This document shows positions 21,255 to 43,269 of a stretch of 64,000 nucleotides of DNA, one piece after another (position 1 is the stretch's first letter; every line of letters starts with the position of its first letter). The stretch is taken from contig NZ_CP066356.1 in assembly GCF_023278185.1 (NCBI RefSeq), positions 2,038,001 to 2,102,000 of the forward strand, read 5' to 3'. The translations under genes and the position numbers were made by a program. This stretch comes from Bradyrhizobium elkanii USDA 76 (lineage in GTDB: Bacteria; Pseudomonadota; Alphaproteobacteria; Rhizobiales; Xanthobacteraceae). The notes under the pieces were generated by a model. That model made no database searches. It saw only the letters and a list, made by a program, of their open reading frames with translations, and was not told the DNA's origin.

Positions 21255-21881
21255 TCAAAACTTCGCTGCTATCTCCGCAAGCCGGCGATGCGCCGCCTCG
21301 CGGGCGGCGCGGATCGGCTCGGTGGGCCCGGTGGTCGGGCCGATCGGCACGAAGCGCACGTCGCTGATGCCGATGAAGCGCAGCGCTTCGCGCAGATAGG
21401 GTGTTGCCATGTCGATGCGGCCGCGGTTCATGCCGGTGACGAAGTCGCTGCCGCTTGCGAGGATCACGATCGTCGGGCGGTCCTTGAGCAGCGGCAGATA
21501 GCCCTGCGCCGGGTCGAAGCGGAAGGCCAGCCCGGGCTGGATGATGACGTCGAGCCACTGCTTGAGCTTGTAGGGAATGCCGAAGTTCCACATCGGCGTT
21601 GAGATCAGCACACGATCGGCCAGCGACAGCCGCAGCGCGAGGCGCTCGGCGATTGCGAAGGCGTCGTGCTGCGAATTGGTGAAGCTCTTGCCGCCGATCC
21701 GGGCGTATTTGGCCTCGAGCAGATAACCCTCGAATTCCGGCAGCGGCTCGCGCCAGAGGTTCATCCCGTCGATCTCCCAGTCCGGCCGCGCCTGACGGAA
21801 GCGATCGAGAAAGACACGCGCGCCGGCCGCCGATTCCGAATCGGCGCGCGGTGAGCAGTTAAGATGCAGCAGCTTCGACAC
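21255..21881 (-). CDS. azoR: FMN-dependent NADH-azoreductase-like flavodoxin-fold protein
   Basis: The 208-residue protein begins MSKLLHLNCSPRADSESAAG, the FMN phosphate-binding start of AzoR, and has ISTPMWNFGIPYKLKQWLD and ASGSDFVTGMN later. AzoR proteins reduce azo bonds and quinones with NADH in the cytoplasm. It is the last gene of the long minus-strand cluster, 9 bp after the SMP-30/isochorismatase gene, so it may reduce a quinone or similar intermediate of the same pathway (inference). A large inverted repeat follows its stop. Confidence 0.9.
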   Translation of the reverse strand: MSKLLHLNCSPRADSESAAGARVFLDRFRQARPDWEIDGMNLWREPLPEFEGYLLEAKYARIGGKSFTNSQHDAFAIAERLALRLSLADRVLISTPMWNFGIPYKLKQWLDVIIQPGLAFRFDPAQGYLPLLKDRPTIVILASGSDFVTGMNRGRIDMATPYLREALRFIGISDVRFVPIGPTTGPTEPIRAAREAAHRRLAEIAAKF

Positions 21882-21890
21882 CGCGCCTCC

Positions 21891-23462
21891 CTAGCCGAGC
21901 GCCTTGATCACGGTGTCGGCGTTGGTCACGACGGAGACGTTCTGGAGCGCGAAGTTGATCGCGGCGTTGTGCCAGTCGGCATTCATGGTCGAGCAGCAAT
22001 CCTCCGGCACGATCATGAAATAGCCCTTGTCGGCGCCGGTGCGCGCTGTGTGCTCCACCGACATGTTGGTCCAGGCCCCGGTGTTGATGATCATGTCGCG
22101 GCCGGTCGCCTTCAGGATGGTCTCGAGCCGCGTGCCTTCCCAGGCGCTCATCCGCATCTTCTCGACCACGAAGTCGCCCAGGCGCGGCTCGAGTCCCGAA
22201 ACCGGTGCCGCGCCCCAACTGCCGCGCACCATCGCCTTGCTGTCGACTAGCCCCTCGAACAGCGGCGCGTTCAAGGTGACGCCGGGCGCGCCTGGCTCGA
22301 CGACGAACCAGACATGGATGATGGCGACGCCGCGCGCTCGCGCAGCCTCCGCCACGCGGCGGACATTGTCGACGACATGCTGCTGGCGGGCGTGCGCGGG
22401 CGCACCGGACTCGGCGAACGCGCCGCCGTCCATGATGACGTCGTTCTGCATGTCCTGGATGATCATCGCGCAGCGTTGCGGATCGAGCTGCATCTCGCCG
22501 GCGGTCAGGTTCGGCGCAGGCGTGGACGATGTGGCACTCGCGCCGCCGCGCTTGCCGCTCATATAGGGCTCATGGCGCGGACCGACCTTGGTCGGGATCG
22601 CATAGACCGAATGGGTGGCGGTCAGATAGAGCGTGCGGAAGTCGGCGCCGCCCCAGGCGAGGTTGGCGACGAGCTCCGGCAGGCGGACCTTGCCGAGCAG
22701 GTCGCCGCCGGGTGAATAGACCCAGACGCCGCCGGGCGCAGTGACCCAGACATTGCCGCGCTGGTCGCACTTCATGCCGTCGGGCAGGCCGGGCTCGAGC
22801 TCGGAGCGGATGCCGGAGGCGAACACGCGCGGATTGGCAAGCGAGCCGTCGGCGCTGACGTCGAAGGCGCGGATTAGCGCCTGCACGGTGTCGTTGACAT
22901 AGAGGATGCGCTCGTCCGGCGAGAAGCACAGCCCGTTCGGTTGCTCGAACAGATAGCGGTCGACCAGCAGTTTCGGCGCGCCGCCGCCGGGCGGCACGCG
23001 GTAGACGCCCTGGAAGCCGAGCTGGCGCGGCCGTTCGACGCCATAGACCGGCATCCGGCCGTACCATGGATCGGAGAAATAGATCGCGCCGGAGGAATGC
23101 ACGCAGACGTCGTTCGGACTGTTGAGCTCCTGGTTCTCGTAATGCGAGACCAGCACCTCGCGCCGCCCGTCGGGCCGCTCGCGGATCAGCGACGACGTTG
23201 CGTGCTCGCAGACGATCAGATTGAGGTCCGCGTCATAGGTCATGCCGTTGCATTTGTTCGACGGCCGCTTGACCTCGACGACGCCGCGCCGCGCATCCCA
23301 GCGCCGCCGTACGTCGCCGGGCATGTCGGAGAACAGCAGGAAGTGATCGAGCGGATGCCAGATCGGTCCCTCCGTGAAATCAAAGCCGGTCCCGACCTGG
23401 CCGACCGGCGCGTAGGGATCGATCAGGCCTTCGAACTCGCTGCGCAGCGTGACATGCGTCAT
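21891..23462 (-). CDS. SMP-30/gluconolactonase-like domain fused to an isochorismatase-like domain
   Basis: The 523-residue protein is a fusion. Residues ~1-300 form a six-bladed SMP-30/gluconolactonase propeller, with metal-site candidates in FTEGPIWHPL (Glu), ELNSPNDVCV (Asn) and GLPDGMKCDQRGN (Asp). After a Ser/Thr/Ala/Pro linker, residues ~330-523 form an isochorismatase-family hydrolase: Asp337 in IIQDMQND and Lys435 in VVEKMRMSAW are kept, but the nucleophile position reads NMSVEHTAR, so Ser468 replaces the usual Cys. The amidase chemistry of the family is therefore doubtful, while a lactonase activity of the first domain is plausible. It is cotranscribed with the MBL lactonase gene (12-bp gap). 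Confidence 0.88.
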   Translation of the reverse strand: MTHVTLRSEFEGLIDPYAPVGQVGTGFDFTEGPIWHPLDHFLLFSDMPGDVRRRWDARRGVVEVKRPSNKCNGMTYDADLNLIVCEHATSSLIRERPDGRREVLVSHYENQELNSPNDVCVHSSGAIYFSDPWYGRMPVYGVERPRQLGFQGVYRVPPGGGAPKLLVDRYLFEQPNGLCFSPDERILYVNDTVQALIRAFDVSADGSLANPRVFASGIRSELEPGLPDGMKCDQRGNVWVTAPGGVWVYSPGGDLLGKVRLPELVANLAWGGADFRTLYLTATHSVYAIPTKVGPRHEPYMSGKRGGASATSSTPAPNLTAGEMQLDPQRCAMIIQDMQNDVIMDGGAFAESGAPAHARQQHVVDNVRRVAEAARARGVAIIHVWFVVEPGAPGVTLNAPLFEGLVDSKAMVRGSWGAAPVSGLEPRLGDFVVEKMRMSAWEGTRLETILKATGRDMIINTGAWTNMSVEHTARTGADKGYFMIVPEDCCSTMNADWHNAAINFALQNVSVVTNADTVIKALG

Positions 23463-23474
23463 CGCCTCGATCCT

Positions 23475-24326
23475 CTACGCCGGGAACCAATTGCGCTGCG
23501 GTAGGCTCTGCACGACAGGCCCGGGTACCTGGTCGTGCAGCCGGCCGACCACCATGCCGCCCTCGATCTTGGCCGGGCGATCATGCACCGGAAGCAGATA
23601 GCGTGAGCTCGAGAGCAGCTTCTTGATCGCGGCCTTCTCGGCGCGCTTGCTGGTGCCGTGGTTGCCCGTGGTGCGCGGCTCGGCGTCGTGGATCTCGTTA
23701 AAGGGATTCACGATCTGGTCGTTGAAATCATAGATCACGTCGCCGCAGATCGTGGCGATGCCGTCGGCGGTGTGGACGTGGATGTTCATCGAGCCTTCGG
23801 TGTGGGCGTTGGCGGCGTCGCAATAGACGCCCGGCATCAGCTCGACCGGGCCGGTGATTTCGAGGTCGAGAAAGCGCAGCGCGCTCTTGGTGTGCAGGCG
23901 GTCGATCAGATGCTTGATGTCCGGCGCCGGATACTGCGGGTGCATCAGGCCGGAGACGGAGTATTCCAGCTCCTTGCGGTTCAGCACGACCGTGGTGTTC
24001 ATCGGGAACAGGTCGTCCTTGCCGGCATGATCGATGTGCAGATGGGTGTGGCAGACGAAACGGACGTCGCCCATCCGCACGCCGTGGCGGGCGAGTTGGT
24101 TCTCGATCATGTTCTCGTGGAACTGGAGCCCGCGCATGCCGAGCGTCTCCATGATCTGGTTGGAGCGATATCCGGTGTCGACCAGCACGGGGTAGGGGCC
24201 GCCGAGGATCAGGAAGCCGAGCGTCAGCACGCGGCGGGTGCGGCCGCAATTGTGCCCGAGCACGAGGAAGCTCGATTCCAGCTCGATATCGCCATAGTCC
24301 AGAATCTTGATCTCCAACGGCATCAT
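23475..24326 (-). CDS. N-acyl-homoserine-lactonase-family metallo-hydrolase
   Basis: The 283-residue protein is a metallo-beta-lactamase-fold enzyme. The metal motif HTHLHIDHAG (H95, H97, D99, H100) is intact, with further ligands in DAANAHTEGS and GDVIYD. The N-terminal MPLEIKILDYG and LILGGPYPVLVDTGY match the AhlD/AttM lactonase branch. Members hydrolyse acyl-homoserine lactones or other lactones. In this catabolic setting a pathway lactone is at least as likely as quorum quenching. GGGAGGGAGA precedes two adjacent ATGs; the second (24323) has better spacing. Confidence 0.88.
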   Translation of the reverse strand: MMPLEIKILDYGDIELESSFLVLGHNCGRTRRVLTLGFLILGGPYPVLVDTGYRSNQIMETLGMRGLQFHENMIENQLARHGVRMGDVRFVCHTHLHIDHAGKDDLFPMNTTVVLNRKELEYSVSGLMHPQYPAPDIKHLIDRLHTKSALRFLDLEITGPVELMPGVYCDAANAHTEGSMNIHVHTADGIATICGDVIYDFNDQIVNPFNEIHDAEPRTTGNHGTSKRAEKAAIKKLLSSSRYLLPVHDRPAKIEGGMVVGRLHDQVPGPVVQSLPQRNWFPA

Positions 24327-24374
24327 TCTCCCTCCCGATTCGTGTTCGTTGTTATGTTCGTGCCCGCGGTGCGG

Positions 24375-25265
24375 CTATGGCTCCAGCCGATAGACCCGCG
24401 CCGCCGTCGTGCTGAAGATCGCCTCGCGCTGTTCGGGGCTGAGCCGTTCGGCTGCCGTCTTGAAAGCGGCGACGAGATCGCGATAGCTGGTCCACAGCTT
24501 CTCGATCGGAAAGTTCGAGCCGAACAGGCAGCGGTCGGCGCCGAAGATCGCGACGGTATCGGTCATCACGCCGGCGATATGCGCGGCATCGTTGCGATGG
24601 ATGAAGGTGCCGAGCCCGGACAGCTTCGACACCACATTCGGACATCGCGCGAGCCGCGTCATCCCGGTGCGCCAGGCGGCGCGGCCCCGCGGCGACAGAT
24701 CCTCCAGCATGCCGGCATGCTGCAGGATGAACGTCACGTCAGGGCAGGCCTCCGCAAGGCCGGCCGCATCGGCCATCTGCGGCGCGAACACCTGCAGGTC
24801 AAAACTCCAGCTGTAGTCGGCGAGATGGCCGACATTGCGCCGGATCACGGGATCGGTGCAGAGATCGGCACGGGCGGCGAAGCGGTACAACGGGTTTTCG
24901 TGCCAGTGCAGCTGCATGCGCACGCCGCGCACCAGCGGATAGCGCTTCAACCGATCGAGGTGCGGCCGGACGTCGGCGACCGAGAAATCGGCATAGGCGA
25001 CGAGAGCGTGCGGCCAGCCGTGCGCGTCCGCGGTCTGCTGCACCCAGGCCGCCTCGTCCTCGAACTGGCCGTTCGGCCAGTTGGTCTGGACATAGACCGA
25101 GCGGGTGACGCCGGTGCCCTTGAGGTCGTCGAGATATTCCTCGATCGGATAGTCGCGCCGGATCGGCTCGTAGGGGCCGAAGATGCGCGGCTGCATCGGG
25201 CCGGACAGCCAGGCGAGATCGGCCTGCCGCCAGATGTGATGATGTCCGTCGACAATACCAGTCAC
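24375..25265 (-). CDS. Amidohydrolase family protein (amidohydrolase-2 type)
   Basis: The 296-residue TIM-barrel protein starts with GTG overlapping the stop of the VWA gene (GTGA). MTGIVDGHHHIWRQADLAW holds the first metal histidines; FILQHAGMLEDL, NVVSKLSGL and CLFGSNFPIEKLW match the lactonase/decarboxylase branch of amidohydrolases. It is a distant relative of the amidohydrolase at 11999-12853. It likely hydrolyses a lactone or cyclic intermediate of the pathway encoded by this operon; substrate unknown. Confidence 0.88.
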   Translation of the reverse strand: MTGIVDGHHHIWRQADLAWLSGPMQPRIFGPYEPIRRDYPIEEYLDDLKGTGVTRSVYVQTNWPNGQFEDEAAWVQQTADAHGWPHALVAYADFSVADVRPHLDRLKRYPLVRGVRMQLHWHENPLYRFAARADLCTDPVIRRNVGHLADYSWSFDLQVFAPQMADAAGLAEACPDVTFILQHAGMLEDLSPRGRAAWRTGMTRLARCPNVVSKLSGLGTFIHRNDAAHIAGVMTDTVAIFGADRCLFGSNFPIEKLWTSYRDLVAAFKTAAERLSPEQREAIFSTTAARVYRLEP

Positions 25266-26380
25266 GCAGCTCTCCTTGTTCCAAGCGACAGCAGATGCGC
25301 GACAACAGCCGCGCTGGATCCGCCGTCCACGAGATCGTCGACGAAGCGCTGGATCGCGATCAGCGCCTCGGTTTGCGGCGTGAAGCCGGGCGAGGTTGCG
25401 AGCGGCGTCAGCCAGCTGACGCGCCAGGCCCGCCGCGACAGCTTGGCGACCGCATCGCGCAGTGCCGCCGGGTCGCCGCGCTCGAGGCCATCGGAGACGA
25501 TCACGACCGCGGCGCCGCGGGCATACCCGCCGAACCGCGGCACCGCGAGGAACGCCTGCAACGCGTCGCCGATCCTTGTGCCGCCATCCCAGTCGCTGAC
25601 CAGGAAGGAGGCCGCGTTCAGCGCCTGCTCGCGCCGCTTCAGCCGCAGCGCCGGCGTGACGCGGGTCAGCCTTGTGCCGAAGGTGAAGACCTCGACATTG
25701 CCGGCCGCCTGCACCAGCACATGCGCGAGCTTCATGTTCTCCTCGGTGCGCGCCTTCATCGAGCCGGAGACGTCGATCAGGAACAGGATCTTGCGCGGAC
25801 GCTGGCGGCGGCGCATCCGCCCGAGCCGCAGCACCTCGCCGTCATTGCGCACGCTGTCGCGTAGCGTGCGGCGCAGATCGGCGAACGGGCCACTCCGTGC
25901 GCGACGGCGCCGGTGGCCGCGCCGTCGCGGCAGCCGCCGTGCCGCCTCGCGCGACAGTTTTCGCAGCGGATCGCTGGTCGCCGCCTGTGCAAAGCGGCGC
26001 TCGACCAATGCCTCGGCGCGCGCCGCGGCGAGGCCGGACTCATTGGCCTCGTCGGCGAGCGGCGGCTCGTCCTCGCCGCGGCCTTCCTCCTGCAGGCGGA
26101 CGGTCTCCTCGTCCTCGCCTTCGGCCTGTTCGATCGCCTCGGCGCCGCGAAAATGGATGTCGAACAGCCGGTCATACGTCGCACGGCGTTCCGGCGGTGG
26201 CGCCAGCGTCGCTAGCCCGGCCAGGCGGACGTGCTCGAGGCTGCGCGGCCCGAGCAACTCGATCGCCGCGAGGAAGCTCGTCGTCTGCTCCGGCGCGACC
26301 GCGAAGCCGTTGGCGCGCAGCAGAGCGACGAACGAGACAAATATCCGCGCGGCGCGCGGCAGCTGCAGGTCGTCGCTCAC
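25262..26380 (-). CDS. VWA domain protein, CoxE-like
   Basis: The 372-residue protein has a C-terminal von Willebrand A domain with a complete MIDAS start (KILFLIDVSGSMKARTEEN) and a CoxE-like N-terminal half with an acidic Glu-rich region (EGEDEETVRLQEEGRGEDE). CoxE and its partner ATPase CoxD help insert or activate the bimetallic centre of CO dehydrogenase. Here it overlaps the MoxR gene by 4 bp (GTG start) and follows molybdenum hydroxylase genes, so a similar maturation role for this hydroxylase is likely. Cytoplasmic; no signal peptide. Confidence 0.88.
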   Translation of the reverse strand: MSDDLQLPRAARIFVSFVALLRANGFAVAPEQTTSFLAAIELLGPRSLEHVRLAGLATLAPPPERRATYDRLFDIHFRGAEAIEQAEGEDEETVRLQEEGRGEDEPPLADEANESGLAAARAEALVERRFAQAATSDPLRKLSREAARRLPRRRGHRRRRARSGPFADLRRTLRDSVRNDGEVLRLGRMRRRQRPRKILFLIDVSGSMKARTEENMKLAHVLVQAAGNVEVFTFGTRLTRVTPALRLKRREQALNAASFLVSDWDGGTRIGDALQAFLAVPRFGGYARGAAVVIVSDGLERGDPAALRDAVAKLSRRAWRVSWLTPLATSPGFTPQTEALIAIQRFVDDLVDGGSSAAVVAHLLSLGTRRAA

Positions 26381-27258
26381 GCGGCCGCCTCCGCGATGAT
26401 CGCATCGAGCCGGGGTGAGATGAAATGCAGGTCCTCCTCATCCTTCAGCGCGACGCCGATCGAACGCTTGAACGCGTCCGGCCAGCGCGCGCCGCCCTTG
26501 TTGAGCAAGGTCGCGGCCTCCGCCCAGTCGACCGCCTCGGCGATCCCGGGCGCCTTGCTCAGCGGCTCGCGGCGCAGCCGACCGACCGCGGCGACCACCG
26601 CGCGGGCGGTGGCCTCGGCGACACTGGACGCCCGCATCATCACGATCCGAGCCTCGCGCTCGGCATTCGGATAATCGATCCAGTGATAGACGCAGCGCCG
26701 CCGCAGCGCCTCGTGCAGATCGCGCGTCCGGTTCGAGGTCAGCACCACGACGGGATGTTCGGCAGCGCGCACCGTGCCGCGCTCGGGGATAGAGATCTGG
26801 AAGTCGGAGAGGAATTCGAGCAGGAAGGCCTCGAACTCCTGATCGGCGCGGTCGATTTCGTCGATCAGCAGCACGGTCGCGTCGGGCGCGCGCAGCGCGG
26901 CCAGCATCGGCCGTTCGATCAGGAAGGCATCGCCATAGATGTCGATGCTCTCTTCGCCGGCCTGCCGGATCGCCAGCATCTGGCGCGGGTAGTTCCATTC
27001 GTAGAGCGCAGCGGCGGCGTCGATGCCCTCATAGCATTGCAAGCGGATCAGCTTGCGGCCGAGCACGGCGGCGATCGCTTTCGCGGCCTCGGTCTTGCCG
27101 ACACCCGGCGCGCCCTCGAGCAGCAGCGGCTTGCCGAGCGCCAGCGAGAGATAGGAGGCCGTCGCGATGCCGTCGTCGGCGAGGTAATAGGCCGCGCGCA
27201 GCGCCCTCTCGAGCGCTTCGGGGCTGTCGATGCCGACGATGTTGCTGCGGATCGGCAT
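26377..27258 (-). CDS. MoxR-type AAA+ ATPase, CoxD-like
   Basis: The 293-residue ATPase has Walker A GAPGVGKT at 49-56, Walker B VLLIDEIDRADQEFEAFL, sensor segment VVLTSNRTRDLHEALRRR, and the C-terminal lid. It belongs to the MoxR group; the partner downstream is a VWA protein, the universal MoxR pairing. Together such pairs act as chaperones that remodel metalloenzymes, as CoxD/CoxE do for CO dehydrogenase. It begins 9 bp after the stop of the molybdenum hydroxylase C-half. Confidence 0.92.
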   Translation of the reverse strand: MPIRSNIVGIDSPEALERALRAAYYLADDGIATASYLSLALGKPLLLEGAPGVGKTEAAKAIAAVLGRKLIRLQCYEGIDAAAALYEWNYPRQMLAIRQAGEESIDIYGDAFLIERPMLAALRAPDATVLLIDEIDRADQEFEAFLLEFLSDFQISIPERGTVRAAEHPVVVLTSNRTRDLHEALRRRCVYHWIDYPNAEREARIVMMRASSVAEATARAVVAAVGRLRREPLSKAPGIAEAVDWAEAATLLNKGGARWPDAFKRSIGVALKDEEDLHFISPRLDAIIAEAAA

Positions 27259-27267
27259 GGCGAGACC

Positions 27268-28290
27268 TCAGCGCCGCGGCTGCGGCCGCGCGCCGCCCTG
27301 CGCCTTGATCGCGCGCAGCACCTTCTCCGGCGTGATCGGCAGATCGTCGATCCGTACCCCGACCGCGTTGAAGATCGCGTTGGCGATCGCAGGCAGCACC
27401 GGATTGGCGCACATCTCGCCCGGTCCCTTGGCGCCGAACGGACCGTCGGGCGCCGGGCGTTCCAGCACCGCGATGTCGTGCGGGCAGATGTCGCCCGGAC
27501 CCGGCATCAGATATTCGACGAAGTCGCGCGGACCGTGCACCGGCTCCGGATAATAGGGCTCCGGCGTCTCATAGAGCGCGTGGCTGACGCCCATCCAGGC
27601 GCCGCCGACCAGCTGCTGCTCGACCAGCCGCGGATTGAGCGCGCGGCCGAGCTCATAGGCGGAGTCCATCCGGACCATGTCGACCTCGCCGGTCTCGTCG
27701 TCGACCTCGACCTCGGCGACGAGGCAGGCATGCGCGTAGCATGTCGCCGGCGACATCTCGCCGGTCTCGGGATCGACGTCGGACAGCGGCACCAGGAAGA
27801 TGCCGCGGCCGGAGATCGTCTTGCCCTGCTTGAACTGCGCGGCGATCGCGACGTCCTTGGTCGAGATCGAGCGATGCGGCGCGCCCTTGACGTGGATGTT
27901 GCCGCGGCCGTCGGTCTCGAGGTCGGCGGCATTCACCTCCAGCTCCTCGGCGGCCGCCTCCATCATCACCCCGCGCGCCTCGCGCGCCGCCGCCATCACG
28001 GCGTTGCCGACGCGATGTGTGCCGCGCGAGGCGAACGAGCCCATGCAGTGCGGGCCGGTGTCGGAATCCGCGGTGTCGACATAGACGTCCTCGACCGGCA
28101 CGCCGAGCGTCTCGGCGCAGATCTGCCGCGTCACCGACTTCATGCCCTGGCCGAGATCAATCGACGACAGCGCCACGGTGAACTTGCCGCTGGGGTTGGA
28201 ATGCACCAGCGCCTGGCTCGGATCGCCGCCAAGATTCATGCCGATGGGATAATTGACCGACGCGATGCCGCGCCCACGATGCCGGGTCAT
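27268..28290 (-). CDS. Molybdenum hydroxylase large subunit, C-terminal half (separate gene)
   Basis: The 340-residue protein corresponds to the second half of a xanthine-dehydrogenase/CoxL-type large subunit. It holds the molybdopterin-binding segments VALSSIDLGQGMKSVTRQIC and GSFASRGTHRVGNAV, and the active-site glutamate in FGAKGPGEMCANPVLPAIAN. The start ATG follows AGGAGGCGC, 2 bp after the stop of the gene for the first half, so it is translated as a separate polypeptide by coupling. It must assemble with the N-half to make a working enzyme. Confidence 0.88.
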   Translation of the reverse strand: MTRHRGRGIASVNYPIGMNLGGDPSQALVHSNPSGKFTVALSSIDLGQGMKSVTRQICAETLGVPVEDVYVDTADSDTGPHCMGSFASRGTHRVGNAVMAAAREARGVMMEAAAEELEVNAADLETDGRGNIHVKGAPHRSISTKDVAIAAQFKQGKTISGRGIFLVPLSDVDPETGEMSPATCYAHACLVAEVEVDDETGEVDMVRMDSAYELGRALNPRLVEQQLVGGAWMGVSHALYETPEPYYPEPVHGPRDFVEYLMPGPGDICPHDIAVLERPAPDGPFGAKGPGEMCANPVLPAIANAIFNAVGVRIDDLPITPEKVLRAIKAQGGARPQPRR

Positions 28291-28292
28291 GG

Positions 28293-29885: not shown

Positions 29886-29897
29886 GGCACTGTTTCC

Positions 29898-30380: not shown

Positions 30381-30383
30381 GAT

Positions 30384-31202: not shown

Positions 31203-31215
31203 GATGTCCTTCCGC

Positions 31216-31659: not shown

Positions 31660-31662
31660 GGC

Positions 31663-32100: not shown

Positions 32101-32109
32101 GGCGTCAGC

Positions 32110-35004: not shown

Positions 35005-35028
35005 CTCTTCCTCCCTTGGTCACGGCGG

Positions 35029-35862
35029 CTAGCGTGCGCCGATCGCCTTGAATTTGCGAACCTGATCCGTCAGCGCCCGCTCGACCGGCAGGCGCTCCAT
35101 CGAGGAGGCGCCGTAGAAGCCGTGGCAGTTGCGGGTCTGCTTCATGATGAAATCGGCATCGGCGGGGTCCGCGATCGGACCGCCATGCGCGAGCACGATA
35201 ATGTTCGAATTGACGCTGAGGGCGGCCTCGGCCCAGGCCTCGATGCGGGCAGGGCAGTCGGCAAGTCTTGGCGCGGTCTGCGCGCCGATCGTGCCGCCGG
35301 TGGTCAGGCCCATGTGGCAGACGATGATGTCGGCGCCGGCGATCGCCATCGCGGCGGCTTCCTGCTCGCTGAACACATAGGGCGTGGTCAGCATATTCTT
35401 CTCATGCGCCTTCGCGATCATGTCGATCTCGAGCGCATAGGACATTCCGGTCTCTTCGAGATTGGCGCGGAAGGTGCCGTCGATCAGGCCGACGGTCGGG
35501 AAGTTCTGCACGCCAGCAAAGCCGAGCGCCTTGAGCTGGTCGAGGAACACATCCATGTCGCGGAACGGATCGGTGCCGTTGACGCCGGCGAGCACCGGCG
35601 TTTTGGTCACGACCGGCAGCACCTCGCCGGCCATCTCGACGACGATCGCGTTGGCATCGCCATAGGGCATCAGGCCGGCGAGCGAGCCACGGCCGGCCAT
35701 GCGGTAGCGGCCGGAATTGTAGATCACGATCAGGTCGACGCCGCCGGCCTCCTCGCATTTCGCCGACAGTCCCGTGCCGGCACCGCCCCCGACGATCGGC
35801 TCGCCGCGTGCGATCATGGCGTGAAACCTCTTCAACAGCGCCGTGCGTTCAAACCTGGCCAT
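35029..35862 (-). CDS. Phosphoenolpyruvate-hydrolase-family TIM-barrel protein
   Basis: The 277-residue protein is a TIM barrel of the PEP_hydrolase/TIM-barrel signal-transduction family: [20 protein letters not shown], then [37 protein letters not shown] and [16 protein letters not shown]. Its plant counterpart is the C-terminal part of Tm-1-like proteins, whose N-terminal part is the UPF0261 domain. Here the UPF0261 domain is encoded by the gene just upstream (3-bp gap), so the two probably act as a complex. The substrate is unknown despite the family name. Confidence 0.88.
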
Positions 35863-35865
35863 TGG

Positions 35866-38076
35866 TCACCTCGCGACTCTCCGCCGACCACCGGCGCGTC
35901 CGAGCAAGGGGCGGAACGCGCTGACGATGGCGGCGGTGAACTCGGGATCGTTGATGTTGCGCTTGATGCGGATGATCTGCCGGTTGCCGGTCTGGCGCAC
36001 GGTGCGCTCCAGCGCGCGGAACAACGCCGCATCGGCCTCCGGGTCCCAGAACGGCTGGCCGGGTGCATCGAGCGCGGAGACGCCGCCCTCGGCCAGGAAG
36101 AAGCGCACCGGTCCGTCCATCTGGTTGAGCCGTTCGCCGATCCAGCGGCCCATGTGCTCGTTCTCTTCCGGCGTGGTCCGCATCAACGTGACCTGCGGAT
36201 TGTGGACGTGGAATTTGCGTTGCCGATAGCGCTCCGGGATCGTGTCGGGTGCGCCGAAGTTCACCATGTCAAGCGCGCCGACCGAGCCGACATAGGGCAC
36301 GCGGCTGCGGATGATGGCGCCGAAGCGATCCTCGGTCGCCGGGAACACGCCGCCCATCAGCAGGTCGCAGACCTCGGTCGTGGTGAGGTCGATCACGCCG
36401 GCGAGTTGCCCGGACTCGACCAGCTTCTCCATCGAGCGGCCGCCGACGCCGGTGGCGTGGAAGACGAGGCACTCGAAATCCTCGCGCAGGTCGGCCGCAA
36501 TCCTCTGCACGGCCGGCGTGGTGACGCCGAACATGGTGATGCCGATCGCCGGAAGATGAGCGCCTGCATCGCGCTGCTTGCCGGCCTGCTCATCGAGCCG
36601 CGCCTTGACCATACCGACCAGCGCATTCGCGCCGTTGCCGAGCACCGTGCGCGAAATCGAGTTGAGACCCTGCACGTCGGTCACCGAATACATCATGGTG
36701 ATGTCGGCGGGACCGACATAGGGACCGACGTCGCCGGACGCGACCGAGGAGATGATCAGCTTCGGCATGCCAACGGGCAGCGCGCGCATACCGGGCGCGA
36801 CCAGCGATGCGCCGCCGGAGCCGCCCGCGGAGATGATCCCGGCGATATTGCCCTGGCGGCGCAGCCATCGCTCGAAGGCGTCCGCCATCGCCGTCACCGA
36901 GGCGCCGCGATCGGCGCCGAACACGCCGGAGCCGCCGCGGCCGTGGTTCAGTGCGATCTCCTGCGCGGTCACATCGCAGCTCGCCGCCTTGCCGCTGGTC
37001 GAGACGTCGACCAGTCGGGTGCGCAGGCCGCTGCCGGCGATAATATCGCGGATGAAGCGCAGCTCGGCACCCTTGGTGTCGAGCGTGCCGACGATGAGGA
37101 CGACCGGAGGCCCGGAAGTTCGGGAGGTCGTCGGTTCGCGTCGCTGCCGCGTTGCCTCCTCGAGCCGCGTGACCCCGGCGGACTGCGTCCGCGCGGCGGC
37201 CTCGATGCGGGCGATCGGCACCGGCTGCGACCAGCGGGTCGGCAGCACCGGATTGGAGATGTAGATGCGTGTCGGCCCCTTGCGTTCGGGCTGCGGCGCA
37301 CCGGCCGCTTCAGCCTTCGCCGGCGCTGGCTCGGCGTCGGTCTCGTCGGCGCCATGGGTGCCGACACCCAGCAACCGCTGCTGCAGCTCGCGGTCGCTTG
37401 CAAGGCGCGCGGAATCGATGATGCGGTTGATCCGGCCATTGACCATGATGGCGACGTTGCGCGACACCGCCGTCGCCACGCCGATGTTCTGCTCGATGAC
37501 CAGGACGGAGATGTCGCCTTCGTCGCCGAGGCGCAGCAGCATGTCCTCGACCTGGGCGACGATCACGGGCGCGAGGCCTTCGGTCGGCTCGTCCATGATC
37601 AAGAGATGCGGATTGGTCAGCAGCGCGCGCGCGATCGCGAGCATCTGCTGCTCGCCGCCGGACAGCTGGTTGCCGCCATTGCTCTTGCGCTCGGCGAGGC
37701 GCGGGAAGGTGTCGTAGATCCGCTCGATGGTCCAGGCGCCGCGGCGCAATCCGCCGGCGAGGGCAAGGTGCTCGTCGACGGTCAGCGAGCGCCACAGGCG
37801 GCGGCCCTGCGGCACATAGCCGACGCCGAGCCGGGCGATCCGCGCCGGATTGAGCCGCGTGACCTCCTCGCCGCGGATCCGGATCGAGCCGCCGCTGGCA
37901 CGCACGAGGCCCATGATCGCCTTGCACAGCGTGGTTTTGCCCATGCCGTTGCGGCCGACCACCGAGAACACGCCGGACTCGAGCGTGAGATCGACGCCCT
38001 GCAACGCGTGCGAATGGCCGTAATAGACGTCGAGGCCTTTCACCTCGAGTGCGGGCACGGCGCGACGGTCATTCAT
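35866..38076 (-). CDS. LivF-type ABC ATPase fused to a Tm-1-like (UPF0261) domain
   Basis: The 736-residue protein has two parts. Residues 1-240 form a complete LivF ATPase: Walker A GRNGMGKT 41-48, Q-loop Q90, signature LSGGEQ 138-143, Walker B LLIMDEP 158-164. After an Ala/Pro/Glu/Arg-rich linker (~240-322) residues 325-736 are a UPF0261/Tm-1-like ATP-binding domain, starting VVLIVGTLDTKGAELRFIRD and containing SAGGSGGASLVAPGMRALPV and SSVASGDVGPYVGPADITMM. I know of LivF and UPF0261 only as separate proteins. It overlaps livG by 8 bp, and the reading frame is continuous across the linker. Confidence 0.92.
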   Translation of the reverse strand: MNDRRAVPALEVKGLDVYYGHSHALQGVDLTLESGVFSVVGRNGMGKTTLCKAIMGLVRASGGSIRIRGEEVTRLNPARIARLGVGYVPQGRRLWRSLTVDEHLALAGGLRRGAWTIERIYDTFPRLAERKSNGGNQLSGGEQQMLAIARALLTNPHLLIMDEPTEGLAPVIVAQVEDMLLRLGDEGDISVLVIEQNIGVATAVSRNVAIMVNGRINRIIDSARLASDRELQQRLLGVGTHGADETDAEPAPAKAEAAGAPQPERKGPTRIYISNPVLPTRWSQPVPIARIEAAARTQSAGVTRLEEATRQRREPTTSRTSGPPVVLIVGTLDTKGAELRFIRDIIAGSGLRTRLVDVSTSGKAASCDVTAQEIALNHGRGGSGVFGADRGASVTAMADAFERWLRRQGNIAGIISAGGSGGASLVAPGMRALPVGMPKLIISSVASGDVGPYVGPADITMMYSVTDVQGLNSISRTVLGNGANALVGMVKARLDEQAGKQRDAGAHLPAIGITMFGVTTPAVQRIAADLREDFECLVFHATGVGGRSMEKLVESGQLAGVIDLTTTEVCDLLMGGVFPATEDRFGAIIRSRVPYVGSVGALDMVNFGAPDTIPERYRQRKFHVHNPQVTLMRTTPEENEHMGRWIGERLNQMDGPVRFFLAEGGVSALDAPGQPFWDPEADAALFRALERTVRQTGNRQIIRIKRNINDPEFTAAIVSAFRPLLGRAGGRRRVAR

Positions 38077-38851
38077 GGCCGCCTCCGAGATAAAGCTCCT
38101 GCACCTCGGGATCGGATTCGATCTCGCGCGGCAGGCCTTCCTTGAAGATGCGGCCGTTGTGCATCATCGTCACGCTCTCGACGACGCGCAGCGCGACGTC
38201 CATGTCGTGCTCGATGATGATGTAGCCGATATGCGCCGGCAGCGAGGTCAGGATCTCGATCAGCTCGCGCCGTTCGGTCCGCGACAATCCCGCCGCCGGC
38301 TCGTCGAACAGGATGAAGCGCGGCGCGCCGGCGAGCGCCAGCGCGATCTCGAGCTGCCGCTGCTGGCCATGTGCGAGCTCGGCGACGCGCTGGTCCTTCA
38401 CGCCGCTGAGGTGCACCGCCTGCACCAGCGTTTCGGTCGCGTGCATCAGCGCATCGTTCTGCCCCGGGCGCAGGAACGAGAAGCGGCCGCGCGAGACGCC
38501 GCGGCAGGCGAGGTAGACATTGTCCTGCACGGTCAGGCCGGGGAACAGTGCCGAGATCTGATAGGTGCGGCGCAAGCCCCGGCGGATCCGCTCATAGGGA
38601 GGGAATTGGGTGATGTCCTCGCCGAAGAAGCGGATCGTGCCGGAGGAGGGCGGAAAGTCGCCGGTAATGCAGTTGAACAGCGTCGTTTTGCCGGCGCCGT
38701 TCGAGCCGAGCACCGCGCGCCTTTCGCCGGGCCGCACCGTGATGGTGACATCGGTCAGCGCCGCCAGCGCGCCGAACAGCCGCGTCACGCCGCGCAGCTC
38801 GAGCGCCGCGCCGGCGCCGACCACGGACAGCCGCTGCGCGACGCTATCCAT
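38069..38851 (-). CDS. LivG-type ABC transporter ATP-binding protein
   Basis: The 260-residue ATPase has Walker A GSNGAGKTTLFNCI, the LivG-type signature LAHGQQRQLEIALALAG, Walker B FILFDEPAAGLSRTERRELI and the switch histidine in YIIIEHDMDVALRVVE. It is the partner of the LivF half of the downstream fusion and powers the LivH/LivM channel in the inner membrane. It overlaps both neighbours by 8 bp. Confidence 0.94.
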   Translation of the reverse strand: MDSVAQRLSVVGAGAALELRGVTRLFGALAALTDVTITVRPGERRAVLGSNGAGKTTLFNCITGDFPPSSGTIRFFGEDITQFPPYERIRRGLRRTYQISALFPGLTVQDNVYLACRGVSRGRFSFLRPGQNDALMHATETLVQAVHLSGVKDQRVAELAHGQQRQLEIALALAGAPRFILFDEPAAGLSRTERRELIEILTSLPAHIGYIIIEHDMDVALRVVESVTMMHNGRIFKEGLPREIESDPEVQELYLGGGHE

Positions 38852-39929
38852 GGCCGCCTCCGCCTGAACGTTTCGTCGAGGACGCGCTGCGGCGCCGCCA
38901 GCGTTCCCACAGGCCGATCACGCCGTCGGACGACCAGAACACGATGGCGAGGAAGCCGAGCCCGATCAGCAGCCGGAAGCGGTTGCCGTCGAGGCCGAAC
39001 TTGATCAGCACGTCGAGCGCGAAGGTCCGCAGCAGCACGAAGATCAGCGCGCCGATGAAGGGTCCGATCGGCCGCGTGATGCCGCCGACCACGGCGATGA
39101 TCAGGACGTCGATGCAGGCGCCGACGCTGACCGAGCCGGGCGAGATCTGCCGGTAGTTCCAGACCTGCAGCACGCCGCCGAGCGCGGCGATGAAGGCGGC
39201 GAAGGCGTAGGCCGCAATGCGGTGCGCATTGGGGTTGAAGCCGAGCGCCGCCATGCGGCGGGAATTGTCGCGGACGCCCTGCAACGCGAGGCCGAACGGC
39301 GCGCGCGAGACATACTGGACGGCGAAGTAGCAGATCGCGGCGACGCCGAGCGTGACATAATAGAAGGCGATATCGGCGCGCCAGTCGACGCCCCAGAAAT
39401 ACGGCGTCGCGACGGTGTTGATGCCGGTGTGGCCGTTGAAGATCGCCCAATTCTGGTTGGTGAAGTAGTAGAACGCGGCGCCGATCGCCAGCGTAATCAT
39501 GATGGTGTAGATGCCCTCGGTGCGCACCGCGAGCGCGCCGCCGAGCGTGCCGAACAGCGTCGCCAGCGCCAGCGCCATCGGGGTCGCCAGCCACCACGGC
39601 CAGCCGAGGCTGATATTGGCGTTGCCGCTCACGCCGAACACCGCAACCATGTAGCCGGCGAAGCCCGCGATCGTGAGCTGCATCAGGCTGACCATGCCGC
39701 CATAGCCGGCGAGGAACATCAGGCTGAGCGCGATGATGCCGAGGATCAGCGTGGTGGCGAAGATCTCGATCAGGAAGAAGCCGTTGGCGATCAGCGGCAT
39801 GATCACGAGGATCAGCGCGACCAGCCAGGCCACAGGGTTCTGGAATTCCGGCCAGGCACGGACCAAGGCGCGGCGGGTCGCGTTGGCGGATGGATCGGGG
39901 CGGAATTGGGTGCTCTGGAGCAGCGACAT
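38844..39929 (-). CDS. LivM-type ABC transporter permease
   Basis: The 361-residue protein has about ten hydrophobic segments beginning with PVAWLVALILVIMPLIANGF. It carries the LivM cytoplasmic-loop motif (GPFGLALQGVRDNSRRMAAL, then GFNPNAHRIAAYAFAAFIAA). It forms the channel with LivH. The N-terminal ~25 residues are hydrophilic. It lies 3 bp after livH and overlaps livG. Confidence 0.94.
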   Translation of the reverse strand: MSLLQSTQFRPDPSANATRRALVRAWPEFQNPVAWLVALILVIMPLIANGFFLIEIFATTLILGIIALSLMFLAGYGGMVSLMQLTIAGFAGYMVAVFGVSGNANISLGWPWWLATPMALALATLFGTLGGALAVRTEGIYTIMITLAIGAAFYYFTNQNWAIFNGHTGINTVATPYFWGVDWRADIAFYYVTLGVAAICYFAVQYVSRAPFGLALQGVRDNSRRMAALGFNPNAHRIAAYAFAAFIAALGGVLQVWNYRQISPGSVSVGACIDVLIIAVVGGITRPIGPFIGALIFVLLRTFALDVLIKFGLDGNRFRLLIGLGFLAIVFWSSDGVIGLWERWRRRSASSTKRSGGGGHG

Positions 39930-39932
39930 CGG

Positions 39933-40943
39933 TCATCGCCTCGCGAGCAGGCCCTGCGGCCGCAGCGCCAGCACCAGCACCATGATCAGGAAGGTGACGA
40001 CGATGGCGTAGGTCGGGATGTAGACCGAGCCGAGCTGCTCGGCGAGGCCGATGATGACTGCGCCGAGCGCCGCTCCCGGGATCGAGCCCATGCCGCCGAC
40101 GATCACGACGACGAGGGAGGCGAGCAGGAACCGCGTATCCTCGCCCGGCGACAGCGACTGGAAGGTGCCGCCGACCACGCCGGCAATGCCGGCAAGGCCC
40201 GCGCCGAGCGCGAACACCAGCACGAACACCAGCTGGATCCGCACCCCGGTCGCGGCCAGGATGTCGCGGTCGTCGACGCCCGCGCGCACGATCATGCCGA
40301 TCCGGGTGCGGTTGAGCGCCAGCCACATCGCGATTCCGATCACGACGGAGGCCGCGAAGATCACCAGCCGCACCAGCGGATATTGCAGATAGACCGGCTC
40401 GCCCGATGATTTGATCGCGGTCAGCAACGGCAGTTGGATCGGGCCGATCAGCCAGCTCGGGGTCTGGATCTGGTAGAAGTCGCCTCCGAACACCCAGAGC
40501 ATCAGATCGGCGAACACGATCGAGAGCCCGATCGTCACCATGGTCTGCCTGAGGTCCTGACCCTCCATGCGCCGGAACACCACGAGCTGCAGGATCACGC
40601 CGACCAGCGCCACCGCGACGAAGGCGACGATGAAGCTGAGGAGCCACGACCCGGTCCAGCTGCTGATCGCGTAGCCGACATAGCCGCCGAACAGATAGAG
40701 CGAGCCGTGCGCAAGGTTGACGTTGCGCATCAGGCCGAAGATCAGCGTGAAGCCGCTGGCCACCAGGAAGTACAGCCCGCCGAGCGTGATGCCGTTCAGC
40801 ACCGCGTTGAGGAACACGCGCTTGCGGCCGATCGCGGCCTCCAGCCCCGGCGGCCAGATCGCGACCACCAGCCACGCGAGCACCGCGACCGCGATGATCA
40901 CGATCAGCGCCCAGGCCGGATGGCGTTCGATGAACCTAGCCAT
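39933..40943 (-). CDS. LivH-type ABC transporter permease
   Basis: The 336-residue protein has an N-terminal membrane segment (WALIVIIAVAVLAWLVVAIW) ahead of the usual eight, and shows the LivH landmarks NAVLNGITLGGLYFLVASGF, MRNVNLAHGSLYLFGGYVGY and a coupling loop with RTRIGMIVRAGVDDRDILAA. With LivM it imports the operon's substrate, delivered by the binding protein encoded at 42019-43269. Confidence 0.94.
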   Translation of the reverse strand: MARFIERHPAWALIVIIAVAVLAWLVVAIWPPGLEAAIGRKRVFLNAVLNGITLGGLYFLVASGFTLIFGLMRNVNLAHGSLYLFGGYVGYAISSWTGSWLLSFIVAFVAVALVGVILQLVVFRRMEGQDLRQTMVTIGLSIVFADLMLWVFGGDFYQIQTPSWLIGPIQLPLLTAIKSSGEPVYLQYPLVRLVIFAASVVIGIAMWLALNRTRIGMIVRAGVDDRDILAATGVRIQLVFVLVFALGAGLAGIAGVVGGTFQSLSPGEDTRFLLASLVVVIVGGMGSIPGAALGAVIIGLAEQLGSVYIPTYAIVVTFLIMVLVLALRPQGLLARR

Positions 40944-41063
40944 CTCCGTCGCGTTCCCTCACTGGTCGCGGCCGTCTGCCGGGCCGCGTGTCCAATATCC
41001 TATCGAGGGCGAAAGCTCAGGATTTGATCGACAGTATCTTTTATCGTGTGCTCCGGAACTGCT

Positions 41064-41882
41064 TCACGGCCGCAACACCTTGGCGGCGCGGCGATAGTCG
41101 GTCGGCGCCATGCCGACATTGGCGGCGAAGAAGCGGGTGAAGCCGCTCTGCGAGGAGAAGCCGAGGTCGAAGCCGATATCGGCGATCGGCGTCTCGGTCG
41201 CCACCAGCGCATCCAGCGCCTGTTCCATGATCAGCGTGTTCATGTAGAGGTGAGGGGTGACGCCGGTCTGGGTGCGGAACAGCCGGTAGAAATGCGGCCG
41301 CGACAGCCCGGCCTCGCGCGCGATCGCATCGAGCTCGATCTCGGCGCCGGGGCTTTCCGACATCAGCTTGATCGATTTGCGCACCCTGAAATCGGTCACC
41401 GCGGCCGCCGCGCGCGCGTCCTGCGCCGCCTGCCAGCTCTCCTCGTAGCAGGAGTCGATCAGCTGCCGGAGCTCGCAATCGAGGCTGCGCAGCGACGGCG
41501 CGCCGCACACCAGTGCTGCGGTGCGGCGGATCAGCCGGTCGAGCGCTTCGGTGCGCGGAAAGAAGGTGCGGCCGAACCGCAGCCCCTGTGCCGTCGCGGG
41601 CTGCGGCGCGAACCATTCGGCGTTGACATAGAGCACGAAGAAGATCGCGCCGTGGTCCATGTCGGTCGGCAGAAAATTGTGCGGTTCCCACGGGTTGACC
41701 GCGACCACGGTATCGTCCTTGAGCAGCAGCCGTTGCTCCGAGACGTCGATCTGCGCCGGCGTTCCGCCGACATGAAAGATCAGATGCCCTTCGCGATGCG
41801 CATGCACGTTGAAGGGACGGTTCAACTGATAGACCGTCGCGCGACCGAACCGGCCGTGGAAGACGGCAAGCGCCCTGCTCAT
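41064..41882 (-). CDS. AraC-family transcriptional regulator
   Basis: The 272-residue protein has an N-terminal cupin-type sensing domain (RPFNVHAHREGHLIFHVGG, DTVVAVNPWEPHNF) and two C-terminal helix-turn-helix motifs (IELDAIAREAGLSRPHFYRL and TPIADIGFDLGFSSQSGFTR). It lies between the substrate-binding protein gene and livH on the same strand and is the obvious candidate activator of the whole cluster, responding to the imported compound. It is separated from its neighbours by 120 and 136 bp, so each block may have its own promoter. Confidence 0.9.
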   Translation of the reverse strand: MSRALAVFHGRFGRATVYQLNRPFNVHAHREGHLIFHVGGTPAQIDVSEQRLLLKDDTVVAVNPWEPHNFLPTDMDHGAIFFVLYVNAEWFAPQPATAQGLRFGRTFFPRTEALDRLIRRTAALVCGAPSLRSLDCELRQLIDSCYEESWQAAQDARAAAAVTDFRVRKSIKLMSESPGAEIELDAIAREAGLSRPHFYRLFRTQTGVTPHLYMNTLIMEQALDALVATETPIADIGFDLGFSSQSGFTRFFAANVGMAPTDYRRAAKVLRP

Positions 41883-42018
41883 GCCTCCCCTCCCGCGGGA
41901 TGTTCTTGTCTTTTCGACAAGCGTTCATCATCCGCCCGCGGAAAGCAAGGGCGAGCAGGGCGCATCATGCAACCGCGCGCCGTCGCCACGGTCGCGTGCT
42001 TGCACTGCAGCAAATACG

Positions 42019-43269
42019 TCAGTACTTCTTGCACTCCGGGACCGTGCGGCTCGGCAGGCCGATCTTGGCGAACACCGCCGGATCGTAGCCCAGCGTCTGG
42101 TTGACGTTCGGGATCACCTTGACGACCTTGCTGAACAGCGCGCCCTTGCCGTCATCGACCACCTCGGTGACGAAATTGGTGCCGATCGCCTGGCGGTTGG
42201 AGTCGAGCTTGATCTTGCCGTTCGGCGCGTCGATCTCGATCTTGGCCAGCGCCTCCTTGAGCTTGGCCTGGTTGTTGGAAAGATCGCCGTTGACCTGCCG
42301 CAGCGCCAGGATCAGCGCCATGGTCGAGCCGTAATAGTTGGTGGCGAGCAGCGACGGGCTCGGGAAGCGCTTGGCCGGCGGGAAGGCATCCTGATAAGCC
42401 TTCACGAATTTCTGCCAGCCCGGATCCTCCCAGGTATCGGCCTGGCCGCTCGCGGCGATGGTGCCGATCAGCGCGTTCTTGGCGTTGCCCTTCGACGACA
42501 GGATGGTCTGGTCGATCATGATCGAGCCGCCCATCAGATGCGCCTTGCCGCCGGCCTGCTGATATTGGTTGAGGAAGTTGACGGCATCGGCGCCGCCGAG
42601 GCCGAGATAGATCGCGTCGACGTCGTCGGGCAGCGCGGCGATCACCGAGGCAAAGTCCTTGGTGCCGAGCGGCACCCATTGCCGGTTGGTGACTTGGCCG
42701 CCGGCGCCGCAGAATTCGAGCACCAGGCCGAACACCTGAGTGTAGATGAAGGAGTAGTCTTCGCCGACGGTCGCGATCTTTCGATATCCCTTGGTCTCAT
42801 AGGCGTACTTGCCAAGGCCGACCTGCCACTGCGCGCCGTCCATGTTGAAGCGGAAGAAGTTCGGCGCCGGATCGACATAGGTCGTCTCCTGCGCGCCGGA
42901 GGCGGCGTTGACGAAGGTCAGCTCCGGATGGGTTTTTGCAAAATTCTTCACCGCGATGCCTTCGTCGCCGGACAGCGGCGACAGCAGGATCTGCACCTTG
43001 TCCTGCTCGATCAGCTTGCGCACCGCGCGCACCGCGGAATCCGGCGTCGCATCGGTCGAGGCGACGACGAATTCGAGCTCCTTGTCGCCGATCTTCTTGC
43101 CGAGCACGTTGAGCGCCGTCTGGTGGCCGCGCATGCCATCTTCGCCGAGCACCGTATAGGTGCCCTCGAGCGTCGCGGTGACGCCGACCTTGATCTTCTC
43201 CTGAGCGAACGCCGTGCCCGAAAGCAACAGGCTGCTCAACGCAATCAGTCCCAAACTGCCTTTCAACAT
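42019..43269 (-). CDS. ABC transporter substrate-binding protein (LivK-like)
   Basis: The 416-residue precursor has a signal peptide (MLKGSLGLIALSSLLLSG, then TAFA, cut before QEKIKVG) and the type I binding-protein fold: VGVTATLEGTYTVLGEDGMR, LSPLSGDEGIAVKNFAK, and KIATVGEDYSFIYTQVFGLV. It is longer than typical LivK (about 370). GGGAGGAG seven bases upstream fixes the ATG. It presumably delivers the ligand to the LivHMGF transporter encoded downstream. Nothing in the sequence identifies the ligand. Confidence 0.93.
   Translation of the reverse strand: MLKGSLGLIALSSLLLSGTAFAQEKIKVGVTATLEGTYTVLGEDGMRGHQTALNVLGKKIGDKELEFVVASTDATPDSAVRAVRKLIEQDKVQILLSPLSGDEGIAVKNFAKTHPELTFVNAASGAQETTYVDPAPNFFRFNMDGAQWQVGLGKYAYETKGYRKIATVGEDYSFIYTQVFGLVLEFCGAGGQVTNRQWVPLGTKDFASVIAALPDDVDAIYLGLGGADAVNFLNQYQQAGGKAHLMGGSIMIDQTILSSKGNAKNALIGTIAASGQADTWEDPGWQKFVKAYQDAFPPAKRFPSPSLLATNYYGSTMALILALRQVNGDLSNNQAKLKEALAKIEIDAPNGKIKLDSNRQAIGTNFVTEVVDDGKGALFSKVVKVIPNVNQTLGYDPAVFAKIGLPSRTVPECKKY

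Follow-up and report, generated by a model that had tools for sequence, protein, structure and literature searches.

Bacterial flotillins are regarded as scaffolds of membrane processes. To our knowledge, dedicated flotillin clients have rarely been defined genetically. SPFH-domain proteins assemble into rings and domes, and the presence of cargo within SPFH cages has been discussed (PMC12624060). A plant Tm-1-like protein joins UPF0261 and PEP_hydrolase-type barrel domains (PMC5028733), and CoxG, which has been placed in the SRPBCC superfamily, is suggested to bring CO dehydrogenase to the membrane (PMC4240915). Here, we describe a cluster of twenty genes in Bradyrhizobium elkanii USDA 76 (NZ_CP066356.1) in which a long flotillin gene stands among genes for an importer, a split molybdenum (Mo) hydroxylase, and lactonase-like hydrolases. 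Coordinates are positions in the window, the 64,000-nt stretch that was analyzed; L-numbers denote loci of relatives and G-numbers denote genomes, G000 being the genome of the window itself (9.5 Mb in two contigs). Among the works listed by searches on flotillin cages, scaffolds, metabolons, and operons, we saw no case of a flotillin within a catabolic operon. Likewise, the titles and abstract openings of the works listed on UPF0261, CoxG/SRPBCC/quinone, and flotillin contained nothing on this cluster, and a search on Tm-1-like ATP-binding proteins found no works.

Gene order around the flotillin gene is conserved

All 20 open reading frames (ORFs) between positions 21255 and 43269 lie on the minus strand, and ORF calls and Pfam agree with the families assigned in a preliminary description made from the letters of the window. 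The tight spacing reported there was also borne out: from livH (40943) down to azoR (21255), coordinates place neighbors either overlapping by no more than 8 bases or 2 to 48 bases apart. Wider gaps, of 120 bases (AraC gene) and 136 bases (binding protein gene), occur upstream of livH. Scans, which are weak evidence, found 0 sigma-70-like promoter matches between positions 20900 and 40800, versus 1.7 expected, and a single terminator-like match on the minus strand (26359-26345).

Gene order was collinear with the window, on a single strand, in 55 of 55 loci that have coxL2 (encoding the C-terminal Mo subunit) and at least 10 of the cluster genes. L029/L052 and L063/L228 are duplicates, each pair from the same contig, leaving 53 distinct loci. 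There was no internal gap in 49 of the 55; L081 and L110 skip the Amidohydro_2 gene (amh2), L185 and L229 skip the metallo-hydrolase gene, and in L063 and its duplicate L228 the gene for the N-terminal Mo subunit (coxL1) was missed in the order search yet found in the tail analysis described below. The order is kept across related genomes, and the loss of order that the preliminary description had named as evidence against its cluster was not seen.

The flotillin gene (32110-35004) encodes a long protein with a predicted N-terminal membrane helix, an SPFH domain, and a long helical part. Pfam finds both Band_7 (SPFH) and Flot domains, as expected for the giant flotillin that had been proposed, and the model has an SPFH-type fold with a pLDDT of about 80. 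The monomer model as a whole (mean pLDDT, 63; pTM, 0.29) has a helix at residues 2 to 34, a confident SPFH-like part, some 600 residues of helix, and a disordered end. The coil repeats with periods of 11 and 44 residues (identity at lag 44, 0.349, versus 0.176 for the highest of 200 shuffles). With start codons uncurated, lengths are 865 to 1322 amino acids (aa) in one list of loci, once five entries of 579 to 809 (L103, L047, L112, L108, and L073; cut contigs or other type) are set aside, and 501 to 793 aa in 11 sister-type loci. Elsewhere in the genome (G000:C1:4440402-4442006) lies another flotillin-like gene, of ordinary size, with an open frame of 585 aa and 40% identity across query residues 8 to 305.

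Two fusions and a Mo subunit tail follow flotillin

An observation new here is that the joining of neighboring functions follows flotillin in three instances: the LivF-UPF0261 fusion, a tail on the N-terminal Mo subunit, and an SRPBCC fusion. The first is encoded at 35866-38076, where a LivF-type ATPase is fused to a Tm-1-like UPF0261 part with both UPF0261 domains present (Pfam PF00005+PF06792+PF23189). LivF and UPF0261 form one reading frame in all 76 of the flotillin loci showing both. Six loci without a flotillin in view were scored. The two are fused in L064, L118, and L123, which are uninformative because each contig stops no later than the flotillin place (L118 has a flotillin piece at its edge); in the informative loci, L102, L109, and L114, LivF and UPF0261 are separate (3 of 3).

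The second joining is a Pro/Ala-rich tail on the N-terminal Mo subunit, encoded by coxL1 (28293-29885; Pfam PF01315+PF02738 [Ald_Xan_dh_C+MoCoBD_1]; 3hrd chain A). In the window, the tail occupies 28293-28550 (85 codons plus stop) and ends in RFSSVFGTRRR. All 55 flotillin loci in which this end is complete, counting two duplicates, have a tail of 83 to 193 residues that terminates in R[RK]R; an RF.S..G-type motif is present in 49 and a variant, e.g., SRFLSGSRRR, in 6. By contrast with these flotillin loci, the subunit is tailless in six flotillin-free relatives from five organisms (L232 and L233 share a genome): in L196, L197, L232, L233, and L234 the protein ends 13 to 16 residues beyond its conserved part, as it also does in L198, where the reading frame is broken and the end was read by eye. 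L122, an unsplit relative with 31% identity, was left out. No flotillin match was found in a search that covered the whole genomes G344 and G437 and the plasmid records of Salinigranum and Sinorhizobium, but not the Nonomuraea record; the same query matched its own genome.

The tail is otherwise variable. Among distinct tails, identity is 0.61 in the eight residues before RRR, 0.34 to 0.38 just upstream, and 0.185 in positions 36 to 60 from the end. The last 11 tail codons occur in 38 DNA versions that encode 13 peptides, with codons varying synonymously. The tail-end motif is found in 43 of 1521 ORFs from the window and the fetched loci; 42 of these are labeled Mo subunit, and the 43rd (L063) is also a Mo subunit. 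The terminal RRR is mostly encoded by AGG AGG CGC and overlaps a Shine-Dalgarno (SD)-like site for coxL2 in 43 of the 45 sequences parsed (of 56; the pattern missed 11). In the window, the end of coxL1 at 28293-28330 doubles as an SD-like AGGAGG for coxL2. Because of this overlap, RRR is uninformative at the protein level, and we withdrew it as a candidate docking signal.

The variability of the tail bears on an alternative account, in which this is an ordinary Liv-uptake and Mo-hydroxylase operon whose flotillin would only tune membrane fluidity or transporter stability, the tail and fusions being neutral features of a lineage. In the coxL2 tree, 53 flotillin-bearing rows (93/90) stand apart from six flotillin-free rows (86/0), so that the same split accommodates both tail and flotillin, and the tail is of low complexity. 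However, flotillin clusters contain three distinct joinings, and most tails retain the RFSSxxG end despite varying codons. We give this account a sizeable minority chance.

A different possibility is that the tail binds the membrane, a respiratory partner, or the SRPBCC proteins and not flotillin. The end peptide is basic and aromatic, and the recruiting role proposed for CoxG (PMC4240915) offers a precedent within the SRPBCC superfamily. On the other hand, in two tailless relatives (L196 and L198) an SRPBCC gene lies next to the Mo enzyme genes, and the basic end is largely explained by the overlapping SD-like site. We consider binding of this kind less likely than not.

The third joining involves one of two SRPBCC proteins encoded next to flotillin, SRP1 (31663-32100; 97% identity in five same-genus loci) and SRP2 (31216-31659). 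A sister type of cluster keeps the transporter, LivF-UPF0261, PEP_hydrolase, flotillin, SRP1, and SRP2, with no Mo enzyme seen; in 11 loci of this type, SRP2 and a zinc-type quinone oxidoreductase form a single fusion protein. Genes for fumarylacetoacetate (FAA)-hydrolase, alpha/beta-hydrolase, and Amidohydro_1 proteins recur nearby. Among 19 loci with flotillin and SRP1 and without a strong coxL2 match, the SRP2 fusion is seen in these 11 and not in 8; of the 8, L034, L035, L050, L073, L079, L087, and L095 stop short of the coxL2 place, and L085 has no such fusion. The two SRPBCC proteins had been described as CoxG-like. They are indeed SRPBCC proteins, with PF10604 (Polyketide_cyc2) as their sole Pfam match (E ≤ 0.001), but neither matches the CoxG model, which we take to be PF06240, and we rejected the CoxG identity. 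A role as a catalytic lyase was also set aside, there being just weak named relatives, such as lachrymatory-factor synthase.

A possible flotillin-organized catabolic operon

We propose, with the chances about evenly balanced, that the cluster is a flotillin-organized catabolic operon for one small imported compound. The binding protein and Liv transporter would import the compound, and UPF0261, carried on the inner ATPase, would act first, at the transporter, together with the PEP_hydrolase-like barrel. The two SRPBCC proteins might hold or pass a lipophilic intermediate or quinone. The split Mo-hydroxylase, matured by the MoxR/VWA pair, would oxidize the intermediate to a lactone- or lactam-type product, which the Amidohydro_2 protein, the metallo-hydrolase, and the lactonase-isochorismatase fusion would open. 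At the membrane, the operon's flotillin would bring these parts together, and the flexible tail of the Mo enzyme would keep that enzyme in place. Dehydrogenases of the 4-hydroxybutyrate or semialdehyde type, linked to the operon in some relatives, could pass a C4/C5 product to central metabolism.

Several points weigh against this proposal. The association of tail with flotillin may have arisen just once and imply no link in function, since the coxL2 tree separates flotillin-bearing from flotillin-free rows. Given the SD overlap, only RFSSxxG is left as protein-motif evidence, and 6 of the 55 tail ends deviate from it; docking of the tail to flotillin is a step that we infer. The coil is the weak part of the flotillin model (pTM, 0.29). 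The isochorismatase-like domain is without its usual nucleophile. Iron alcohol dehydrogenase (Fe-ADH) and aldehyde dehydrogenase (ALDH) genes occur in a minority of loci and not in the window's cluster, and the ALDH tested is nearest to the alpha-ketoglutaric semialdehyde model, at a score below the cutoff (522 versus 770).

The preliminary description had suggested uptake and membrane-associated oxidation of a cyclic compound. A conserved unit that combines uptake, oxidation, and hydrolysis has good support, with order kept in all loci compared, and membrane association is supported indirectly by the LivF-UPF0261 fusion and the predicted N-terminal helix of flotillin. A cyclic substrate is plausible because lactonase-type hydrolases come after the Mo-hydroxylase. 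A further and more doubtful extension is a shell-free catabolic compartment: a flotillin membrane cage or platform, a transporter-fused first enzyme, lipid-pocket carriers, and a tail-docked Mo-hydroxylase would hand the imported compound along stepwise, with a swappable cargo side that has the tail in one cluster type and the carrier fusion in the other. Gene content, order, fusions, and tail are direct observations. They place flotillin in a conserved catabolic operon whose candidate clients are tailed or fused only in the flotillin-bearing version, making client recruitment directly testable, and they give the uncharacterized UPF0261/PEP_hydrolase pair a metabolic setting.

The Mo-hydroxylase is not a recognizable CO dehydrogenase

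The remaining Mo-hydroxylase genes encode the FAD subunit (30384-31202; Pfam PF00941+PF03450 [FAD_binding_5+CO_deh_flav_C]), the [2Fe-2S] subunit (29898-30380; Fer2+Fer2_2 [PF01799]), and the C-terminal Mo subunit (coxL2; 27268-28290; PF20256 [MoCoBD_2]; 3hrd chain B). They are followed by genes for a CoxD-like MoxR-type AAA ATPase (26377-27258; AAA_5) and a CoxE-like VWA protein (25262-26380; PF05762 [VWA_CoxE]). Both the split hydroxylase and the MoxR-VWA pair had been recognized earlier, and the Pfam matches agree. For both Mo halves, the nearest solved relative is nicotinate dehydrogenase (3hrd chains A and B, large and medium subunits), presumably from Eubacterium barkeri. All 62 aligned sequences retain the catalytic-type Glu of coxL2 (GE motif).

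The MoxR/VWA pair and the plan of FAD, FeS, and Mo subunits could be read as a CO-dehydrogenase-like energy enzyme, perhaps for an atmospheric trace gas, with unrelated neighbors. We find this very improbable. The motif that we take to be the CO dehydrogenase active-site signature, AYxCSFR, was found 0 times in the loci scanned, versus 64 for AMRGFG (duplicates included in both). The Mo halves, each covering part of the NCBIfam CoxL model NF040766, score 165 and 148 bits against a cutoff of 950. Moreover, the split halves are nearest to nicotinate dehydrogenase, and the hydrolases and transporter remain linked. We rejected the CO dehydrogenase identity on motif and cutoff; AMRGFG stands in place of AYxCSFR, and the earlier labels CoxL and CoxG are misleading.

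Relatives of coxL2 extend beyond the cluster. Five plasmid records, including those of a haloarchaeon and an actinobacterium, have coxL2 at 62 to 82% identity, and the next row listed is at 36%; two class genomes (G344 and G437), at 57 to 60%, partly fill this gap. The best 120 of 4736 matches in a search of 5.8 billion proteins were named only CO/xanthine dehydrogenase or Mo-binding subunit. Minimal versions in Nonomuraea (an actinobacterium) and at the flotillin-free Sinorhizobium BG8 plasmid locus keep the Mo enzyme followed by MoxR-VWA-Amidohydro_2. None of MoxR, VWA, and Amidohydro_2 was seen beside the Mo enzyme in L232 to L234, of which L232 and L233 lie near contig ends. On a haloarchaeal plasmid (L196), a 62%-identical coxL2 is accompanied by SRPBCC and cyclase-family genes, which suggests transfer between domains. 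In Sinorhizobium sp. BG8 (L198), the reading frame of the Mo subunit gene is broken near 13700-14000.

Importer and PEP_hydrolase genes

The cluster begins with genes for a periplasmic substrate-binding protein of the Liv/Urt type (42019-43269; Pfam PF13458 [Peripla_BP_6]; closest solved relatives, Liv-type binding proteins) and an AraC-family regulator (HTH_18; relatives in 45 of 58 full-type loci), which we call at 41064-41882 in place of a longer ORF (41041-41931). They are followed by livH- and livM-type permease genes (39933-40943 and 38844-39929; both PF02653 [BPD_transp_2]) and a livG-type ATPase gene (38069-38851; PF00005 [ABC_tran]). With two BPD_transp_2 permeases, two ATPases, and a type-I binding protein, this is a LivFGHM-type ABC importer. 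The transporter with its LivF fusion, binding protein, and regulator is the one given in the preliminary description, as is the Tm-1-like/PEP-hydrolase pair: next to the UPF0261 domains, 35029-35862 encodes a PEP_hydrolase-like TIM-barrel protein (PF09370, 436 bits; solved structure, 2p10).

In a third cluster type, UPF0261, PEP_hydrolase, and SRPBCC occur together but flotillin is absent, and some of these clusters include sugar or BMP-type transporters. PEP_hydrolase-type barrels are also present in long ORFs next to clusters in L111 (513-2264) and, as matched by BLAST only, in L074, L100, L109, L114, and L115. In L111, the barrel is fused to an AAA lid and a Fis-type helix-turn-helix, resembling a sigma-54 activator. 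This fusion suggests that a barrel of this type can act as a ligand sensor.

Hydrolases and accessory dehydrogenases

Three genes account for the four hydrolase-type domains recognized earlier, all of which Pfam recovers: the lactonase-like Amidohydro_2 hydrolase (amh2; 24375-25265; PF04909), the lactonase-like metallo-beta-lactamase-fold hydrolase (23475-24326; PF00753 [Lactamase_B]), and an SGL lactonase fused to an isochorismatase-like domain (21891-23462; PF08450+PF00857). The HxHxDH metal motif of the metallo-hydrolase is kept in 30 of 30 aligned sequences from 31 matched loci, and the first histidines of Amidohydro_2 are kept in 41 of 41. Against an L-fuconolactonase model, amh2 scores 105 bits (cutoff, 400). 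We take isochorismatase-like cysteine hydrolases to use an Asp-Lys-Cys triad. Here, Asp is present in 30 of 30 and Lys in 29 of 29 aligned sequences (32 matched loci), with Ser replacing Cys in 29 of 29. Because Ser stands at the catalytic Cys position, an amidase label appears unsafe.

In relatives, extra genes encode an Fe-ADH (16 of 58 loci) and two kinds of ALDH (10 and 3 of 58), some of the 58 loci ending before the place of these genes. One Fe-ADH tested scores above the NCBIfam 4-hydroxybutyrate dehydrogenase cutoff (504.5 versus 500), and another ALDH matches 3v4c with 628 bits. Downstream of the Yoonia plasmid cluster lie short-chain dehydrogenase/reductase (SDR), FAA-hydrolase-family, and SDR genes. 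The accessory dehydrogenases hint at a C4/C5 semialdehyde outlet in some relatives; the sugar-type neighbors of the UPF0261-PEP_hydrolase-SRPBCC triad point elsewhere, and of the guesses nicotinate, furan, sugar acid, and lactone, none was decided.

Distribution and boundaries of the cluster

A search with the PEP_hydrolase protein matched 16 of 149 family genomes (own included). Ten of the 16 regions around these matches show the cluster; three of the ten (L030, L034, and L035) are cut by contig ends. A scan of named genomes with the PEP_hydrolase alignment, in which the best 80 of 565 relatives were kept as loci, gave hosts that include Bradyrhizobium, Bosea, Phreatobacter, Roseibium, Hoeflea, Jannaschia, Sedimentitalea, and Acuticoccus, and plasmid-borne clusters occur in Shinella (without the metallo-hydrolase gene) and Yoonia. 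The cluster-type metallo-hydrolase (at least 73% identity) is found in 11 of 398 phylum genomes, comprising 9 of 10 same-genus genomes, with its own among them, and 2 from a single other family. Of 376 class genomes, 8 have coxL2 at E ≤ 1e-60, with at most 5 candidates scored per genome. From these counts, we conclude that the cluster is widespread but patchy, in many Alphaproteobacteria. The cluster on a contig labeled Frankia sp. RB7 (L056) is nested among Bradyrhizobium, and the contig is probably mislabeled or contaminated.

The last gene, azoR (21255-21881; PF02525 [Flavodoxin_2]), encodes an AzoR-like flavodoxin-fold reductase. It is next in 4 of 4 same-genus loci extending far enough and in 0 of 22 loci outside the genus with at least 4.6 kb downstream. 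The preliminary description had included azoR in the cluster; we rejected it as a core member and regard it as a genus-level add-on. The core appears to comprise about nineteen genes, whose order is kept in many bacteria from soil and marine settings. A transposase-like ORF (15437-16261), judged by its first residues, lies about 5 kb past the end of azoR.

Comparison with described systems

The cluster resembles the cox cluster of aerobic CO dehydrogenase in its FAD, FeS, and Mo subunits and CoxD-/CoxE-like maturation genes. It differs in having no CO dehydrogenase motif, CoxG model match, or recognized CoxF-type gene, and in a split Mo subunit linked to a transporter and lactonases. With the ascorbate catabolic pathway of Cupriavidus necator, the cluster shares gluconolactonase- and amidohydrolase-family lactonases; that pathway is not known to include a Mo-hydroxylase, flotillin, or UPF0261. 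Nicotinate dehydrogenase (3hrd) likewise has its Mo-binding part split into two subunits, whereas here the enzyme is accompanied by MoxR/VWA, hydrolases, a transporter, and flotillin and carries a long tail on its N-terminal half. In Tm-1-like plant proteins (PMC5028733), UPF0261 and a TIM barrel are found together; the same two domain kinds are adjacent here, but the fusion partner of UPF0261 is a transporter ATPase, not the barrel. Finally, in its SPFH and Flot domains and its predicted N-terminal helix, the flotillin resembles the scaffolds of bacterial functional membrane microdomains. In contrast to these, the flotillin described here belongs to a putative catabolic operon and has neighbors that are fused or tailed.

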